Shown here: positions 34,004-43,449 of the stretch, in pieces
How positions within the stretch are numbered: the stretch's first letter is position 1
How the letters are laid out: the number at the start of each line of letters is the position of its first letter
Assembly: GCF_016446285.1 (NCBI RefSeq)
Contig: NZ_CP054140.1
Coordinates: forward strand, 1,469,501 to 1,533,500
Length of the DNA stretch: 64,000 bases
Direction: 5' to 3'
Origin: Desulfobulbus oligotrophicus
Lineage (GTDB): Bacteria; Desulfobacterota; Desulfobulbia; Desulfobulbales; Desulfobulbaceae
The notes under the pieces: generated by a model
Database searches by the model: none
What the model saw: only the letters and a program-made list of their open reading frames with translations
Told to the model about the DNA's origin: nothing
Translations under genes and position numbers: made by a program

Positions 34004-36274
34004 TTAGAGGTAGGAGAAGGTTGTCTTGTTGTTTTTACGATTGACCTTGACCTTGCCGCCTTTGGTTAATTTGCCAAACAGAATTTCTTCGGTGAGCACA
34101 TCACCGATCTCTTTCATAATCAGGCGCCGTAGAGGTCGGGCTCCAAAAGCCGGCTCGTATCCTGTTTGTGCCAGCCAGGAACGTGCTGCCGGGCTTAAGG
34201 TGATGGTGACCTTCTTGCTTGCCAGCTGCTGTTGCAGTTCGAGCACCATCTTGTCGACCACCTTTTCCACGGTTTCCGGTTCCAGGGCCGAGAAGGTGAT
34301 GATACCATCCAGTCGATTGCGAAATTCCGGTGAAAACAGATTTTTCAAAACCTTTTGTTCCTTTCCCGCAGAATCACCGATGAACCCAATAGTTCGTTCG
34401 CTCATTTCCCGTGCACCGGCATTGGTGGTCATAATTACAATGACATTACGGAAATCTGCCCGGCGGCCGGCATTATCCGTAAGAGTGGAGTGATCCATTA
34501 CCTGCAGAAGAATGGAAAAGACGTCGGGATGAGCCTTTTCGATCTCATCAAGTAACAGGACAGTGTACGGATGTTTACGTATGGCGTCGGTAAGCAGGCC
34601 CCCCTGGTCAAAACCGATATAACCGGGTGGGGCGCCGATCAGTCGAGACACTGCGTGTTTCTCCATGTATTCACTCATGTCAAATCGTTCGAAGTGAACA
34701 CCTAACGAGATGGCTAACTGTCTGGCTACCTCTGTCTTCCCAACACCGGTGGGGCCGGCAAAGAGAAACGAGCCTGTGGGCGATTGGGGATTACCCAGAC
34801 CAGCGCGTGATCGCTTCACTGCCTTGACAATTGCTTCAATTGCCTCGTTTTGACCGAAGATGACTGCCTTGAGTTTATTGTCAAGGTTGAGGAGCTGGGT
34901 CGTGTCATTGCTTACTTTGCTGCTTACCGGTACTCGGGCAATTTTTGACACAATCTGTTCCACATCGCGCACGCCGACCGTCCGTCCGGTTTTACCGTTG
35001 AGACGAAAATAGGCACCGACCTCGTCCATGACATCAATGGCCTTATCCGGAAGAAAACGATCGTTAATGTAACGGTTCGCCAGTTCAGCCGCCGCATCAA
35101 TCGCGGTCCGTGCATAACGGATCTGGTGATGTTCCTCGTAGCGGGATTGTAACCCGCGCAGGATTCTGCCGGTATCAGCCACCGACGGCTCTTCAATATC
35201 TATCTTTTGAAAACGCCGGGAAAGCGCACGGTCTTTTTCGATATGATTTTTATATTCCTCATAGGTGGTTGATCCTATGCAGCGGATGGTGCCCGCCTGC
35301 AAAGCAGGCTTGAGCAGGTTGGAAGCATCCATGGATCCACCACTGGTCGCCCCGGCACCGATGATGGTATGCATCTCATCAATAAAAAGAATGGCTTTTT
35401 TATTTTTTTCGATGGCGGCCACGACTTCTTTTAAACGTTTTTCGAAATCACCCCGATACTTTGTCCCGGCAACCAGGGTACCAAGATCAAGCATGTATAT
35501 TTCTGCATCCTGTAAGAGATCCGGAACGAGCTTTTTAGGGTCAGGTTGAGGATCTTGACGGGCGACACTGTCTTCGTGAATTCTCAAAGCCAGTCCTTCA
35601 GCCATGGCCGTCTTCCCGACTCCAGGTTCGCCGACCAGCAGAGGATTGTTCTTTTTTCGTCGACAGAGAACCTGCATCATTCGGTAGAGCTCATGATCCC
35701 GACCTATTAATGGATCAATGCCACCTTCAGCCGCGCGTTTGGCAAAGTTGACGGTGAACTCTTCTAACGCATCACCGGTTGCATTTTCCTGCTTCTTTTT
35801 TGAAGGATGTTGTCCGGGAGCCTGTCGCAGGGGTTCACTCTGCAGGTATTCCGGGAGGCTGTGGGAAATATACTCCACCACCTCCAGTCGTCCGACCCCC
35901 TCGCTTCCCAGGAAATAGACGGCATGGGAATCCGGTTCAGTGAAGATTGAGACCAGAACATCGCCGGTATCAACCTGTTTTTTGCCGCAACTTTGCACAT
36001 GGTTGACTGCACGCTGCAAAACCCGGTTGAAGGCAACGGTTTGTGCGGGTTCACCTTCAGCGGTTTTCATGACCGGCATACCGCTTTCAAAAAAACGTTC
36101 AAGCCGTTCTTTCAGTGTTTCGTTATTTCCACCACACTTATCAATGATATGGCGGGCAAGGTCATCATGGAGCAGTCCGTACAGCATATGCTCCACGGTG
36201 ACATACTCGTGGCGATGATTTTTTGCCTCTTTTATGGCCTTGATTAGAGCGATCTCTAATTCTTTACTCAGCAT
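34004..36274 (-). CDS. clpA: ATP-dependent Clp protease ATPase subunit ClpA
   Basis: A 756-residue class I Clp/Hsp100 unfoldase. The N domain (1-145) has the double repeat that docks ClpS. D1 has Walker [10 protein letters not shown] (215-223); D2 has GPTGVGKTE with the sensor and C-terminal D2-small domain to residue 756. The IGF/L-type loop that binds ClpP lies in D2 (ERTIGFIGD). It unfolds N-degron and other substrates into ClpP; no clpP is in this window. clpS precedes it by 78 bases on the same strand, which separates it from ClpB and ClpC. Confidence 0.96.
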
Positions 36275-36352
36275 AATGGTGTTCCTCGGTAGAGCGAATA
36301 TCTTGCACAGCTTTGGGTAACGCCTGGTGCCTTATCGGCTAAGGTTTGGTTG

Positions 36353-36670
36353 TTAACTGTCTGGTTCCAGTGAACATCTCAGTGGGTATTCGTTTCTTTT
36401 TGCAATGCGGTGCACCAGCGCCACCTTGGTTTCTCCTATTTCCCGTGTGTAGACTCCTGCTATACCTCTTCCTTGATGATGCACATTGAGCATGATTTGG
36501 GTAGCTTCTTCGATGTTTTTATGAAAAACAGACTGCAGAATCATGACGACAAAGTCCATGGTTGTGTAATCATCATTGTGCAATACAACTCGATAATACG
36601 GTGGCTCCTGCAGGGAGGTTTTTTCTGTTATGTCAGGTTTATCCTGAATGAGAGTATCTTCTTTTGCCAT
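36353..36670 (-). CDS. clpS: ClpS adaptor protein
   Basis: A 105-residue ClpS. The N-end-residue pocket is visible in YYRVVLHNDDYTTMDFVVMIL and the ring around NVHHQGRGIAGVYTREIGETK, which binds N-terminal Leu, Phe, Tyr or Trp and hands it to ClpA. An extended, polar N-terminus (about 20 residues) precedes the core, needed for degradation in E. coli. ATG 36670 is used; ATG 36673 and TTG 36676 are adjacent alternatives. It forms a clpS-clpA pair. Confidence 0.95.
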   Translation of the reverse strand: MAKEDTLIQDKPDITEKTSLQEPPYYRVVLHNDDYTTMDFVVMILQSVFHKNIEEATQIMLNVHHQGRGIAGVYTREIGETKVALVHRIAKRNEYPLRCSLEPDS

Positions 36671-36852
36671 CATCAAGGCGGTTCTGGGAAAAATCTATGT
36701 ATTTTTTACATGTACTGCTCAAGGCGTCGGTAACAAGAAGATGTACGTTAGAACCGTCTTGTCCACGGTCACTCGGCATTTTTCAGTTACCCACAAGTAT
36801 TTTAATGCTCACTGTGGTTTTTGCAAGGGCAGTGGAGTGGCTCCCGGTTGTT

Positions 36853-38232
36853 TTACCCGGTGTATGCCGCGTGCATGGAGGTAAGGAGGCTGTGGAGAAT
36901 CGTATCTGCAGCTACAGGGGATCCTTTGAGTTTCATTTCTGCTTTCAGCAGTAACTGCAACCAGGTGATAAGAACGTGTGTGCTGAAGTTATAGGCTGTT
37001 TTGAATTGCATGTATGAGGCGTAAGGGTGGCGGCTGCCAAATTCTTTTTTGAAGAATTCTTTTTCTTTGAGGCGGGACAGACAGACATGTTGGAATGTCT
37101 GAGCATTCATGGAGGGCAGAAAACCGATTGCAGGTTGCTCTGCCAATGCTTTGCTGAGAAGAAGACTGCGGGTATGGTTGCGGAGTGTTGCTACAATCGC
37201 CAGCGGATGGATATTATTTTCCTGAAGCCTGGTCGCTATGGTTAAGAGGAGCGGCAGGTTTTTACCGGACAGGGCATTGGTCAGCTCAAAAAGTGCTTCT
37301 TGACGGGTTCGACCAACAAGGAGATCAAGATCATCACGGGTTATCTCCCGGCGATCACCTGTATAGGCCATTACCTTACGGAGCTCCATGACCAGTGCCA
37401 CGGGATGGAACCCCACCCGCTCCAGGAGTACGTCGGTCAAAGAGGGAGCCATGATCTTGTTGTCTTCAGCCAGAGTCTGGCGAAGGAGATGGTGAAGGAT
37501 CTCCAGTTGTGTTTTTTCGGCTTTGATTCTTGAATCGGCTTTGGCGGTTATGTCTATAACAGTCTGTTCATCTTTAAGCATTTTGAACAGTTTCGTGCGT
37601 TTATCAACCTCTTCGGCGATCAAAATAAGAAAGTTGCTGTCCGGTATGCCGGCTTTCAGCGTGGTCGCCAAGATCTCACCGGATTGGGAAGAATCGGGAA
37701 CAGGTGCGGAATTCTCGTCAGTCAGAGTGTCCAGGTAGTCGTTGATATACTGTACGTCCTTGCCGGGATGCAAAAAGCCGAAACACTTTTTCCACTCTGT
37801 TGCCGATAACGATGCCAGATCACTTTCGTGGTGTACTGGGTCCAGACCACCACTTTTCAGAAGGGCTTTGAGCGCCCGTTGGGCCTGGTCCGGTTTGTCA
37901 TCGGCATGAGCTTTGCAAAATCGCTCCCATATTGACTTGGCAATGTTTTTTGAAAGAAAGAGACGTGTGTCGGTCACGCGATAAATCTGACGACCGGGAA
38001 GGAGACTGAAGCTGCGCAGCCTGGCGCAGGTAGTGGTGCTGTCTTCCCGGTCACCGTCGATGGGATGAATCGTACCGCCGTGTTTTTGCAACAGCACTTC
38101 AGCTAACTGATTGGCTGTTCGCAGGCAAAGGTAGCGTTCGCCGAAAAATAGATACACCTCTGAAGGCTGTTTTGCTGCCTGCTGAAGCAACTCTGAAAGT
38201 TTATCGTGGGTATAAAGCGGCACAGTTACCAA
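36853..38232 (-). CDS. holA: DNA polymerase III subunit delta
   Basis: A 459-residue HolA, the clamp-loader wrench that opens the beta clamp. Recognisable are VYLFFGERYLCLRTANQL, GRQIYRVTDTRL, ILIAEEVDKRTKLFKML, IMELRKVMAYTGDRREIT and the C-terminal collar. It is over 100 residues longer than usual because of an insertion near residues 115-175 (rich in Asp/Lys). The upstream gene stop at 38226 overlaps it; TTG 38232 or GTG 38223 could start it, with AGAGGA just upstream. Confidence 0.85.
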   Translation of the reverse strand: MVTVPLYTHDKLSELLQQAAKQPSEVYLFFGERYLCLRTANQLAEVLLQKHGGTIHPIDGDREDSTTTCARLRSFSLLPGRQIYRVTDTRLFLSKNIAKSIWERFCKAHADDKPDQAQRALKALLKSGGLDPVHHESDLASLSATEWKKCFGFLHPGKDVQYINDYLDTLTDENSAPVPDSSQSGEILATTLKAGIPDSNFLILIAEEVDKRTKLFKMLKDEQTVIDITAKADSRIKAEKTQLEILHHLLRQTLAEDNKIMAPSLTDVLLERVGFHPVALVMELRKVMAYTGDRREITRDDLDLLVGRTRQEALFELTNALSGKNLPLLLTIATRLQENNIHPLAIVATLRNHTRSLLLSKALAEQPAIGFLPSMNAQTFQHVCLSRLKEKEFFKKEFGSRHPYASYMQFKTAYNFSTHVLITWLQLLLKAEMKLKGSPVAADTILHSLLTSMHAAYTG

Positions 38233-40724
38233 ATTCCTCTGGAAGGAATAAATCGATCCCGAGTCGCTGTGCCGCTGGTTTGCTCAGTTTCATCCAGGAT
38301 CTTATGCAGGATAGCGGTGAGCGATCCGGGTAACAGATAATCTTGACCCCACTCACTTCGAAAAATGGGAGCTGACTGTTGAGCTACGGTTTTCCATGTG
38401 ATATGCGACGGATTGTTGGCAATGATTTCGAAAAACATTTTGTTGTACGGATCGTTAATAATGGCCACTCCTGTGCCGATGCTGGCCAATATATCGACGG
38501 AACTGGCAAAGAGTCGGGTCAGAATGGTATATACCTTGACCCCGCCGCACGATCCTAAACTGAGGAATCGTTGTTTGCTGCGAAGATCAGCCTCGGTGAT
38601 CCTGCCCTCCTCAATCAGCTTGGTCAGTGGTTCAATGATCTGTTCTGAGCGCCAGTAGCTATGCCCCCGCTGAGCAAGCATTTCGTCTTTGGAAAGGATA
38701 AAGCGTCTCAGCATCTCCTTTTGATTTTCCATATTGGAATAGACGAATTGTGTGTGAACGATGGTCATACCGCCGACATTCTTGACAAAGGCCACGGCAA
38801 AGTGCCGGTCGCGCATTGATCTGAACAACGAGGCCAGACCTGCACCGCTCATCCGTTCAATCTCCTGTCGGAAGGCCGGAGTCAGGGTTGGAATAGTGTA
38901 CTGTTGTGAGGGGACTAAACGGTAGCCGTTGTTTAACAGAAGGTTGGCATTGGATATGAAAGACTGTCTTCCATCATCATCGGGATGAAACATGGAGACT
39001 GAACCAAGGCGGCCATCCTGTTTCCACTCTTGAAATGGCGTTGTCTGATAGTTGTCAAGGTTGAGAGCACCGTAGCGGACAACGAGTCTGCTGATCAGGA
39101 GGCGGTCATTCGGGCCAAGGAGTTCCGGGTACGTTTGCAGGTAGTACTGCAGAATAACATTGACCAACTTGGCAAAAGAGGAGTTTTCGGCCTCACTGTT
39201 TTCTGCCATGGTCGTGATCAGAAAGGTGCGGGCATCTGGGGTCAACACCTTAAGGAGGTGGCTGAAGGTTGCAGAAAACAGCAGGATAGAGTCCTCATTG
39301 CGGAAGGCCGAGGCAGTGACCAGTTTGAGGATTTCTCGTTGCTTGACTCCATCTGTAGGAAAAAAGGTGGTTAATCTGCCCTTTTGGGCACAACTGGAGA
39401 TGAAGTCTGCAACCAAACGGCTTTCCGGATCGATTGAGCGAAGGAATGCCAGGAGATCTCCTTGATTCCTGTTTGCGATACGGGTCTGCAGCACTGGAAC
39501 CACAACTGAGCGGAACGAAGAATCATAGAGCTCGCTCCCTTGAGCTGTGATGGCGTACAGGTTGGCAACGGTCAGATCACGAGCGGTTTGGACACGGGCC
39601 GCTGCTGTGGCCTGTTTGAGCACTCCAATGGCCTGGCCCCTGTTGCTGCTTCGGAATTGTCCGGCAAACTGTTCTCTGACCGACGGGGGGAGTTCAGCAA
39701 ATTTGGCGGCCAGCTGTTGTGTTGACCAACTGTTGAGCGTGGCATCGGAGATCTCATAGCCATTGGCATCGGTAACCGAGTGAAAGTTATTGATCCTCCA
39801 TATCGCCTCGGTCCCTCCATCGTACAAGGCCTCAAGGAGTACTGTTTTCTGCCTGCTGTCCAGTTTGCTGAACTGAGTTTCCTGAACATTGGTGGGCAGT
39901 GCAAAGTAACCGACCAGCCAGTTCCAGGCATCCCGGGGAGTCAGCAGTTTGTTGGTAAACAGGCAGCGAGCATTCCAGGCGTCATCCTGGCGGAGTTTTT
40001 GCAGGAGTTCAAGGCCGTCGAGCAGAGTTTCCGGGTCCATGCCACGTACTTTGGCATAGGTTTCAGCAGCTCTGGCCTGGTTGTCTTTCAGACGTGCCAG
40101 CAAGGGCATTCCTTTCTGCGCCAGATCCATCCGCATGCCTCGAACTGAGAAAAGAGCCTGGGCAGCACGGTTGTTGTAATCAGGCATGTTGTTGAATGTC
40201 GTAATCATCGGGACAGCAATACCGGCAGTGGCACCCGGCAGACTGACGTATTTACGAAAGGAACGGCCTGCCTCAAATCCCATTTCTTTGATGGTGTTCA
40301 GGCTGGACATGCCCAGGTCAATGTTGACAGTGTCCATATCGGCGAAGGCTTCGAAGGTCTGAACCTGTTCAAAGGTAAATCGCTCGCGTCCGAGTGTATC
40401 AATAGCCTGTTTCGCATGCTCGAAGCTGACACCGGGTAATCCACAGATTTTGCGGAATATTCGTTGTGCATTATAAGGCATTCTTGGTATGGCGACTCTG
40501 CCGTATTCGACCTGCTGGCTGGTCAAACCAGGGATATTCTGATATAGGTCAAAGGTCTGTGCGGCACTGGCCTGGTTGAGTTGAATGTTGGCTGCAGACG
40601 GTGAAGCACCTGCGCCAAAGAGAGGAGAGGCTGTAACAGTTGCAAGGAGTACAGCCACAGCGGACAGTAGACCGGAACATCTGCAGAACCGGAAGAGTCG
40701 ACGATAAGGGGCATGATGTTGCAT
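38226..40724 (-). CDS. Secreted repeat-containing protein of unknown function
   Basis: About 832 residues from ATG 40724 (a GTG at 40763 would add 13). Not recognised. Residues 18-37 are a signal peptide (GLLSAVAVLLATVTASPLFGA). Residues about 57-250 hold six tandem degenerate repeats of about 32 residues; each has an Asn/Gln-Ala helix ending in Phe/Tyr, a turn such as YQNIPGL, CGLPG, VSLPGA, VRGM, then a second helix. The rest is helical, with a conserved-looking FVKNVGGMTIVHTQFVYSN and a late LSLGSCGGVKVYTILTRLF. It is likely a periplasmic or surface solenoid protein. holA overlaps its stop, so the two are coupled. Confidence 0.8.
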   Translation of the reverse strand: MQHHAPYRRLFRFCRCSGLLSAVAVLLATVTASPLFGAGASPSAANIQLNQASAAQTFDLYQNIPGLTSQQVEYGRVAIPRMPYNAQRIFRKICGLPGVSFEHAKQAIDTLGRERFTFEQVQTFEAFADMDTVNIDLGMSSLNTIKEMGFEAGRSFRKYVSLPGATAGIAVPMITTFNNMPDYNNRAAQALFSVRGMRMDLAQKGMPLLARLKDNQARAAETYAKVRGMDPETLLDGLELLQKLRQDDAWNARCLFTNKLLTPRDAWNWLVGYFALPTNVQETQFSKLDSRQKTVLLEALYDGGTEAIWRINNFHSVTDANGYEISDATLNSWSTQQLAAKFAELPPSVREQFAGQFRSSNRGQAIGVLKQATAAARVQTARDLTVANLYAITAQGSELYDSSFRSVVVPVLQTRIANRNQGDLLAFLRSIDPESRLVADFISSCAQKGRLTTFFPTDGVKQREILKLVTASAFRNEDSILLFSATFSHLLKVLTPDARTFLITTMAENSEAENSSFAKLVNVILQYYLQTYPELLGPNDRLLISRLVVRYGALNLDNYQTTPFQEWKQDGRLGSVSMFHPDDDGRQSFISNANLLLNNGYRLVPSQQYTIPTLTPAFRQEIERMSGAGLASLFRSMRDRHFAVAFVKNVGGMTIVHTQFVYSNMENQKEMLRRFILSKDEMLAQRGHSYWRSEQIIEPLTKLIEEGRITEADLRSKQRFLSLGSCGGVKVYTILTRLFASSVDILASIGTGVAIINDPYNKMFFEIIANNPSHITWKTVAQQSAPIFRSEWGQDYLLPGSLTAILHKILDETEQTSGTATRDRFIPSRGIW

Positions 40725-40742
40725 AGCGTCATGAGTAGGTTT

Positions 40743-41651
40743 ATGGAATGTGAGAGATTGCACAGATGGGTGCCACGGATGGCCTTGCTGGTGGCCATGG
40801 TCTTATGGGGCAGCTCATTTGTAGCGTTGAAGTACGGTTTTCAGGAGATGCATCCTTTACTGATTATTTTTGGAAGGATGGCAGTCGCTTCACTTTGTTT
40901 CCTTCCTTTTAGCCGCTCGTTTTTTCGTATGGGGTTGCGAAGGCACCATCTTTTACCGCTTGTGACGATGTGCCTTTGCGAGCCATGTTTCTATTTTCTT
41001 TTTGAATCAGCGGCCCTGGTCCATACGACTGCCTCTCAGGCTGCCATGATTACGACCATGCTGCCGCTCATGGTTGCCATAAGCGCTGGTTTTTTCCTTG
41101 GCGAACGTATTGCTGTCCGGACTGTTTTTGGTTTTACCATCGCGGCTACCGGTGCAATGTGGCTCAGTATTTCTGCCAAGGAAACTGCTCAGGCCCCAAA
41201 TCCCATGTTGGGGAATTTCCTTGAGTTTATGGCTATGATCTGTGCAGCAGGCTATACTATTCTAATGAAACGATTAAGTAAAGAACTCCATCCTTTTTTT
41301 CTCACCGGAATACAGGCTTTTGTTGGCGCGTTATTTTTTCTGCCTGTCTTGCTGATACCCTCTGTTCAGGACACGTGCCTGTCGTTCAACGGATGGATCG
41401 TTATCTTGTATCTGGGAACGGTGGTGAGTGTGGGGGCATACGGTCTGTATAATTTTGGCATCAGTCGCATCCCAGCCGGTCAGGCTTCAGCCTTTGTGAA
41501 CCTGATACCGGTTTTTACGATAATAATTAGTTTTCTGGTGCTGGATGAACGTTTGACTTCATGGCAGTGGCTGGCCAGCGGCCTTGTCATGACCGGCGTG
41601 TTTTTAAGCCAGAGCACTGTTGATATGCACCGAATAAAAAGTAAAACATGA
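40743..41651 (+). CDS. EamA-family (DMT) transporter
   Basis: About 302 residues from ATG 40743; it starts with a TAGG four bases upstream, divergent from the repeat protein only 18 bases away. Ten predicted membrane spans form two EamA halves, opening MALLVAMVLWGSSFVALKYG and later GTVVSVGAYGLYNFGISR with AFVNLIPVFTIIISFLVLDERLT. These inner-membrane proteins export metabolites or amino acids; the substrate is unknown. The last four bases overlap the next start (ATGA). Confidence 0.9.
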   Translation: MECERLHRWVPRMALLVAMVLWGSSFVALKYGFQEMHPLLIIFGRMAVASLCFLPFSRSFFRMGLRRHHLLPLVTMCLCEPCFYFLFESAALVHTTASQAAMITTMLPLMVAISAGFFLGERIAVRTVFGFTIAATGAMWLSISAKETAQAPNPMLGNFLEFMAMICAAGYTILMKRLSKELHPFFLTGIQAFVGALFFLPVLLIPSVQDTCLSFNGWIVILYLGTVVSVGAYGLYNFGISRIPAGQASAFVNLIPVFTIIISFLVLDERLTSWQWLASGLVMTGVFLSQSTVDMHRIKSKT

Positions 41652-42462: not shown

Positions 42463-43449
42463 TTACTGGTTGCCCGGAGGACATTGGCTCTCCAGCCCGG
42501 TCAGTCGTAACCGCATCCCTGTCCGTAATCTTTCAGGGTCAGTGATTTGGTCTTTATTGAGCCGATAGACCGCCTCCCAGGCGGATTGCCGACAGAGCAC
42601 GCGTTCTGCAATCAGGCTAAGACAGTCACCTGGCTGTACAGTGTAGTAAACAGCAGGAAGAGGAGCAGAATTATCCTGTGGCTGTCCGTTTTTCTGAACA
42701 GTTGTTTCTTCCTGCCTGTCCTCTGTTGAGGGCGTCACACTCGACAGGGTGTTGTTTGTGGTTTCCTTTTTTTTTGCCGGCCGGGGTGCCTCTGCCTGTG
42801 TTGTGACGGATTGTCTGTCGGTGGTTGGTGTCGATGGGGGTGCAGGCCTGATCTGGTTTGAAATTTCAGCTGCTGGTGCATAAGAGTCGGTTTTCGCGTT
42901 CACAGCAGGTGCTGTCGACGTTTGTTGGTGCGCAGTAATTGTTGTATCCAGAGAAGATTCTTTCGCGATTGGTGGAGGGGATACGGGGTCCTGCCGCACT
43001 GTTATAAAGAGGGTGAGTGTTGCCACAGCGGTCAACAGCACTGCGCCGGTTATGATAAAACGTCGGCTTGGGTTGTTGCTTTTCTCCTGGGTTGTTGTCT
43101 GGGCAGCTGTTGCACGGATACGTTTATTTCTTCGTTGGATCGCACGCGATAAGGCAATGGCATCGTCCACACGTTTAATATGTTCGTGAAGGCCCGGAAA
43201 GTCGCAAACCTCATTGAGAACTGACATATACACTGTTTTAGCTTCTTCGTTTTTACCGGCTTGCTCAAGGCTTTCAGCCTGAGTAATAAATGTCTCGGCT
43301 TTGTGCTGCCGCTGTTCAATTTCCAGTCGATAGGCATTTTGTTCGGCAACAGAAAGGGAGGATTCAGTGACGGCAAGGAGTGTGCCGGCTTCAACTATTC
43401 GGCCGGCATCAATCAACTCCTGAATGGAAGGTGAGGGCTCGGTCTGCAA
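42463..43449 (-). CDS. Bitopic LysM-domain protein
   Basis: A 328-residue protein starting at TTG 43449, preceded by AGGAGG. Residues 1-115 are helical and cytoplasmic, with TPR-like AETFITQAESLEQAGKNEEAKTVY. A single membrane helix spans 131-150 after a basic stretch, giving N-in topology. A Pro/Thr/Ser/Ala-rich linker (about 155-265) leads to a C-terminal LysM domain (YYTVQPGDCLSLIAERVLC...) that binds glycan strands. It likely tethers a cytoplasmic interaction domain to the peptidoglycan. No exact match is recognised. Confidence 0.8.
   Translation of the reverse strand: MQTEPSPSIQELIDAGRIVEAGTLLAVTESSLSVAEQNAYRLEIEQRQHKAETFITQAESLEQAGKNEEAKTVYMSVLNEVCDFPGLHEHIKRVDDAIALSRAIQRRNKRIRATAAQTTTQEKSNNPSRRFIITGAVLLTAVATLTLFITVRQDPVSPPPIAKESSLDTTITAHQQTSTAPAVNAKTDSYAPAAEISNQIRPAPPSTPTTDRQSVTTQAEAPRPAKKKETTNNTLSSVTPSTEDRQEETTVQKNGQPQDNSAPLPAVYYTVQPGDCLSLIAERVLCRQSAWEAVYRLNKDQITDPERLRTGMRLRLTGLESQCPPGNQ

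Follow-up and report, generated by a model that had tools for sequence, protein, structure and literature searches.

A lineage-restricted exported protein of the Desulfobulbus order that joins a helical-hairpin solenoid to an unrecognised enzyme-like C-terminal domain

Background

Several described systems resemble parts of the protein analyzed here. LpoA, a helical-repeat lipoprotein that activates its peptidoglycan synthase, is an exported protein with a helical-repeat N-terminal part and an alpha/beta C-terminal part, and ComEA binds DNA outside the cytoplasm. Among cysteine peptidases, those of clan CD (families C11, C14 and C25, together with YabG) are described in PMC12445089 and PMC4357240 as carrying their catalytic His ahead of a Cys that follows Ala; PMC12445089 also places a Gly before the His and, in the C11 motif, another Gly after it.

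In this work we analyze a gene of Desulfobulbus oligotrophicus located in a window of 64,000 nucleotides, by which we mean the whole stretch of DNA under study. Its product is a lineage-restricted exported protein that combines a true helical-hairpin solenoid with an unrecognised enzyme-like C-terminal domain. Finding a conserved exported protein with an unrecognised enzyme-like motif in three families of one order points to an unannotated step in the envelope and, if its Cys-His pair is catalytic, the protein would represent a new family of hydrolases, in which C726 and H688 are the obvious residues of interest.

Methods

Conservation was computed on an alignment of 95 rows, comprising the window protein and 94 loci drawn from 87 of the 94 order-sample genomes and from seven further near genomes. 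Left out of the 94 loci were the D. oligotrophicus genome itself, already represented by the window row, and genomes G025, G029, G125, G152, G189, G191 and G028, most of them with split or partial copies. A quick tree was derived from 90 rows after dropping five that were truncated or on short contigs. The full-length AlphaFold model was built from an 8-row alignment and has an overall mean pLDDT of 67 and a pTM of 0.37. For the hhalign comparisons, the decoys were the three clan CD families reversed (C11, C14, C25) and nine neighbour families.

Results and discussion

The open reading frame of the secreted repeat protein (P0001) occupies 38226..40724 on the minus strand, the coordinates assigned to it in an earlier note on this DNA, and encodes 832 residues from an ATG at 40724; an alternative, longer frame would start at a GTG at 40763. 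The N-terminus (about residues 1-40; 40605..40724, minus strand) is signal-peptide-like, with a 13-residue hydrophobic stretch ahead of the repeats that is found in 93 of the 95 family rows, the other two being without an N-terminus. This signal-like start supports the export proposed earlier, and we regard the protein as exported and probably periplasmic. As read from its sequence, the window protein has no Cys after the hydrophobic stretch and therefore no lipoprotein box. A 19-residue hydrophobic window inside the C-terminal domain (738-756) scores just above 1.8, as does one window in L002; we read it as a buried strand rather than a membrane helix.

Residues 57-283 (39876..40556, minus strand) make up a helical-hairpin solenoid with a period of 32. 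The six helical repeats of about 32 residues claimed in the earlier note are real, and both autocorrelation and AlphaFold support the solenoid it proposed. Self-comparison of residues 57-250 by profile autocorrelation gives a clear period at lag 32, with a value of 0.06 that stands far above the shuffled maximum (mean -0.70, sd 0.04, 300 shuffles). AlphaFold models periodic hairpins over residues 51-270, with helices at 69-81/84-94, 101-113/118-128, 135-146/150-160, 167-179/182-192, 199-211/214-224 and 231-243/246-256, followed by a seventh hairpin of lower confidence; ten-residue mean pLDDT is 72-95 over this region and 50 at 271-280. All six anchors named earlier are present, at residues 61, 94, 128, 160, 194 and 226, but the spacing given for them (29, 36, 33, 32 and 32) is replaced by a more even one when the same loop position is followed through the sequence, since it recurs at residues 66, 98, 131, 164, 196 and 228, or 32-33 apart. 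None of the six best autocorrelation lags of residues 300-560, or of residues 560-812, is 32; in the former, lag 27 lies just over the 95% level (-0.558 vs -0.592).

The statement that the protein belongs to no known family holds for the protein as a whole, since searches of Pfam, NCBIfam and PDB sequences returned no meaningful family match. With either the protein or 40 order-wide members as query, Pfam, NCBIfam, PADLOC and PHROGs gave weak matches, each in at most two of the 40, and the best single match to a Pfam or NCBIfam family among those members has an E value of 0.00068. Against Pfam and NCBIfam, the C-terminal domain consensus matched no family and the middle-region consensus gave matches only at E 0.0047 or worse, while the protein, two profiles and a consensus, each searched against PDB sequences, yielded nothing better than E 0.44. 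Foldseek returned no match at E <= 0.001 for the full-length and domain models, and the best VIA-align Z scores, 9.4 for the helical stretches and 5.0 for the C-terminal domain, are within the noise stated by the tool. None of the papers listed by a literature search deals with such a protein.

The better-conserved part of the protein, which the earlier note had missed, is residues 290-812. All 40 residues that are invariant in the 95 rows map to it (29 in 562-812 and 11 in 290-560, with none in the repeats), and the commonest residue of a column reaches a mean frequency of 0.44 across the repeats, against 0.60 across residues 290-560 and 0.61 across residues 562-812, with peaks of 0.81 at residues 681-700 and 0.84 at 719-732. 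The middle region (residues 290-560; 39045..39857, minus strand) is mostly helical according to AlphaFold, and N312, H315, E324, S403 and D432 are among its invariant residues. On the evidence of the models and of its invariant residues, the C-terminal region (residues 562-812; 38289..39041, minus strand) is an alpha/beta domain and a candidate Cys-His hydrolase. It begins beta-alpha-beta in both the full-length and the domain model, and shortly after its start a DxDG..S motif (D582-D584; 38973..38981, minus strand) has both Asp residues in 95/95 rows. Further along, the proposed catalytic residues are H688 of an RGHSYW motif in which all six residues are invariant (38661..38663, minus strand) and, 38 residues later, C726 of a G[SA]CG motif (38547..38549, minus strand). 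Both are present in 94 of the 95 rows, the remaining row ending earlier; besides C726 no Cys is invariant, and besides H688 the sole invariant His is H315. G687 precedes H688 in 94/94 rows, and C726 is preceded by Ser in 85 of these rows and by Ala in the other 9. The domain model has a pTM of 0.66, and AlphaFold confidence is low around the H688 and C726 motifs in both models; residue propensities disfavour a strand ahead of H688 and favour one ahead of C726 only weakly.

Relatives are present in 35 of 55 near genomes (own included). Of 193 genomes sampled across the order, 94 carry one, and these belong to three families only (f1, f3 and f12); in a phylum-wide set of 297 genomes, the 8 that carry one are all members of this order. 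As far as sampled, relatives lie within one order of Desulfobacterota; the earlier note had named homologues confined to that phylum as something that would support novelty. Searched alone, the C-terminal domain was found in 12/395 at E <1e-90, all in the order, next to four chance-level matches (E 0.08-0.74). With the single protein as query, a scan of 84,980 species, able to reach only close relatives, recovered seven loci; the records of six are titled Desulfobulbus or Desulfobulbaceae, and that of the seventh Proteobacteria bacterium. No relatives were found in plasmids or phages by tblastn, nor in viral contigs. In the protein tree f1 and f3 each stay together, the pattern that vertical inheritance would produce, and genera g9 and g32 unite in one clade; gene context changes three times on this tree.

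Directly downstream lies a holA-like gene (36853..38232, minus strand; 115.8 bits to TIGR01128, cut-off 80). It encodes 459 residues, of which the best TIGR01128 stretch covers only 186-366, the N-terminal part being long and divergent. Its start is ambiguous (38221-38232), so that the seven-base overlap reported earlier stands if holA begins at the TTG at 38232 and is gone if it begins at the GTG at 38223. The pairing, previously thought odd, is widespread, with holA as the next gene downstream, in the same orientation, in 70 of 94 loci (48 of these within 15 bases, taking first possible start codons), but it is absent from family f3 and genera g9 and g32, which account for 22 of the 24 loci without an adjoining holA; the other two are cut by a contig end. 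In the window, holA is followed by what we take to be clpS and clpA (34004-36676), and in 55 of the 94 loci, those at contig ends being kept in the total, clpA is found no more than 3 kb downstream of the repeat-protein gene. On the other side, a divergent EamA transporter gene (40713..41651, plus strand; PF00892, 163.7 bits) is a frequent neighbour, and upstream beyond it lies the gene for a LysM-domain protein (42463-43449; PF01476, 24.2 bits), there in 5 of 35 loci.

Among the 22 loci of f3, g9 and g32, a peptidoglycan gene (rodA, nagZ or a YkuD/DpaA-like gene) adjoins the repeat-protein gene in 16, a pattern noticed after the fact and amounting to two or three events; of the six without, one is truncated at a contig end. 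In genus g9 the gene comes directly after rodA, itself preceded by mrdA, in 3/3 loci; mreB was tested in one, and mreC and mreD presumably belong to the same cluster. One g9 genome has, after the repeat protein, a gene for a trypsin-like protease with a hydrophobic N-terminus (L096, 4899-6941). Genus g32 has the gene tail-to-tail with NagZ in 4 of 7 loci (the one NagZ tested scores 217.3 against NF003740, cut-off 207) and an outer-membrane barrel gene upstream in the five of the seven that were looked at. In family f3 it is tail-to-tail with a YkuD gene in 9 of 12 loci, one of the other three being cut, and the two YkuD genes tested reach 272 and 257 with the DpaA/LdtF model NF040599, short of its cut-off of 365. 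Because holA is missing from these lineages, we regard the pairing as neighbourhood rather than function, widespread but dispensable; and because a peptidoglycan gene so often takes its place there, we take holA to be probably no more than a neighbour, and the protein to act probably at the envelope.

The reading we favour, tentatively, is that the protein may be an exported Cys-His envelope hydrolase mounted on a helical scaffold. In it, the solenoid of 32-residue helical hairpins (residues 57-283) and the second helical region (residues 290-560) accompany an alpha/beta domain, residues 562-812, that would most likely be a cysteine hydrolase (a peptidase, amidase or transferase) in which C726 would be the nucleophile and H688 the base. 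Holding or recognising the substrate would fall to the helical parts, and that substrate would most likely be peptidoglycan or a protein tied to peptidoglycan or its synthesis. We infer a cysteine hydrolase as the simplest explanation because a lone invariant Cys and an invariant His occur in an exported protein whose domain starts beta-alpha-beta; one lone invariant Cys in such a protein would be unlike a disulfide. Counting against this reading are the decoy-level profile comparison described below, the residue propensities before H688, the low AlphaFold confidence around both motifs and the lack of a Foldseek match at E <= 0.001. The middle region is also, on average, as conserved as the C-terminal domain, so that the decisive site might be found there and might include H315; the commonest gene context, holA-clpA, is silent on the envelope; and the peptidoglycan contexts, noticed after the fact, amount to at most three events, with 6 of the 22 loci lacking one.

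The C-terminal domain is perhaps remotely clan-CD-like. It shares with clan CD peptidases, as these are presented in PMC12445089 and PMC4357240, a putative catalytic His that precedes the putative catalytic Cys in every row reaching that far (94/95), a Gly before the His and an alpha/beta start; its [SA]-Cys, in most rows Ser-Cys, resembles the Ala-Cys of the clan in part. It differs in that Ser follows H688 where the C11 motif has Gly (PMC12445089), and in that strands ahead of the His and the Cys, a feature given in PMC4357240, are not confirmed for H688 and C726 in models or propensities. Compared by hhalign with C11, C14 and C25, the domain scored no better than the decoys, one of which, NagZ, scored highest. 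This test is weak because its controls (C25-C14 70%, C11-C14 2.1%, C11-C25 0.2%) miss C11-C25 and hardly recover C11-C14. One run placed the C25 alignment on its catalytic His and no longer did so with more rows. There is no clan CD protein among the 50 fold matches listed for the domain, which says little with this model. The fuller proposal, of a new secreted family of clan-CD-like cysteine hydrolases on a helix-hairpin-helix-like solenoid, trimming peptidoglycan or peptidoglycan-linked proteins in the Desulfobulbus order, is one we consider doubtful.

Other enzyme classes were considered and rejected. The alpha/beta-hydrolase elbow needs a small residue at the position where GHSYW has Trp; sortases carry an Arg after the catalytic Cys, and no invariant Arg follows C726. 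For PIG-L deacetylases, the His of HPDD is variable (H580 in 73/95 rows), and for Slt70, the SLT family is absent from the Pfam outputs. The YkuD L,D-transpeptidase family (PF03734) is likewise absent from the Pfam outputs for the protein, the 40 members and the consensus.

The main rival to an envelope hydrolase, and a possible one, is a periplasmic protein that would not be an enzyme but would scaffold or activate wall synthesis, acting on a peptidoglycan synthase as LpoA does, with the invariant residues forming structure or a binding surface. Such a role fits a protein that consists mostly of two helical regions, the middle one conserved like the C-terminal domain, and that shares with LpoA its export, its general layout and, in one genus (g9), a position among the genes for PBP2 and RodA, directly after the cluster with mreB, mrdA and rodA. 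An invariant RGHSYW...G[SA]CG with a lone Cys would be unusual in a scaffold, however, and sets the protein apart from LpoA, as do the missing lipoprotein box and the absence of the LppC family from the Pfam outputs for the protein, the 40 members and the consensus. We consider it unlikely that the conserved region instead binds a metal or cofactor through C726, H688, H315, E681 or D582/D584, for electron transfer or sensing: acidic, His and Cys residues are indeed invariant, but Pfam, NCBIfam and PDB sequence searches found no metal-site family.

A further point that the earlier note overlooked is the likeness of the repeat consensus to helix-hairpin-helix motifs. The repeat consensus, derived from the 95 rows, reaches 28.5 bits against HHH_5 (PF14520, cut-off 27) over one window, whereas natural sequences stay below the cut-off and only 2 of 40 members match at E <= 1 (best 0.029), so the kinship is suggestive only; the repeats also differ from HHH_5 in forming a long array in an exported protein. 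That they are tandem helix-hairpin-helix motifs by which the protein attaches to extracytoplasmic DNA in the manner of ComEA is quite improbable, since for all the score of the consensus few natural members match and the hairpins, which mostly read PG[ILM] followed by S, T or D, lack the second Gly of the DNA-binding hairpin. The same consensus also matches Transposase_20, below its cut-off.
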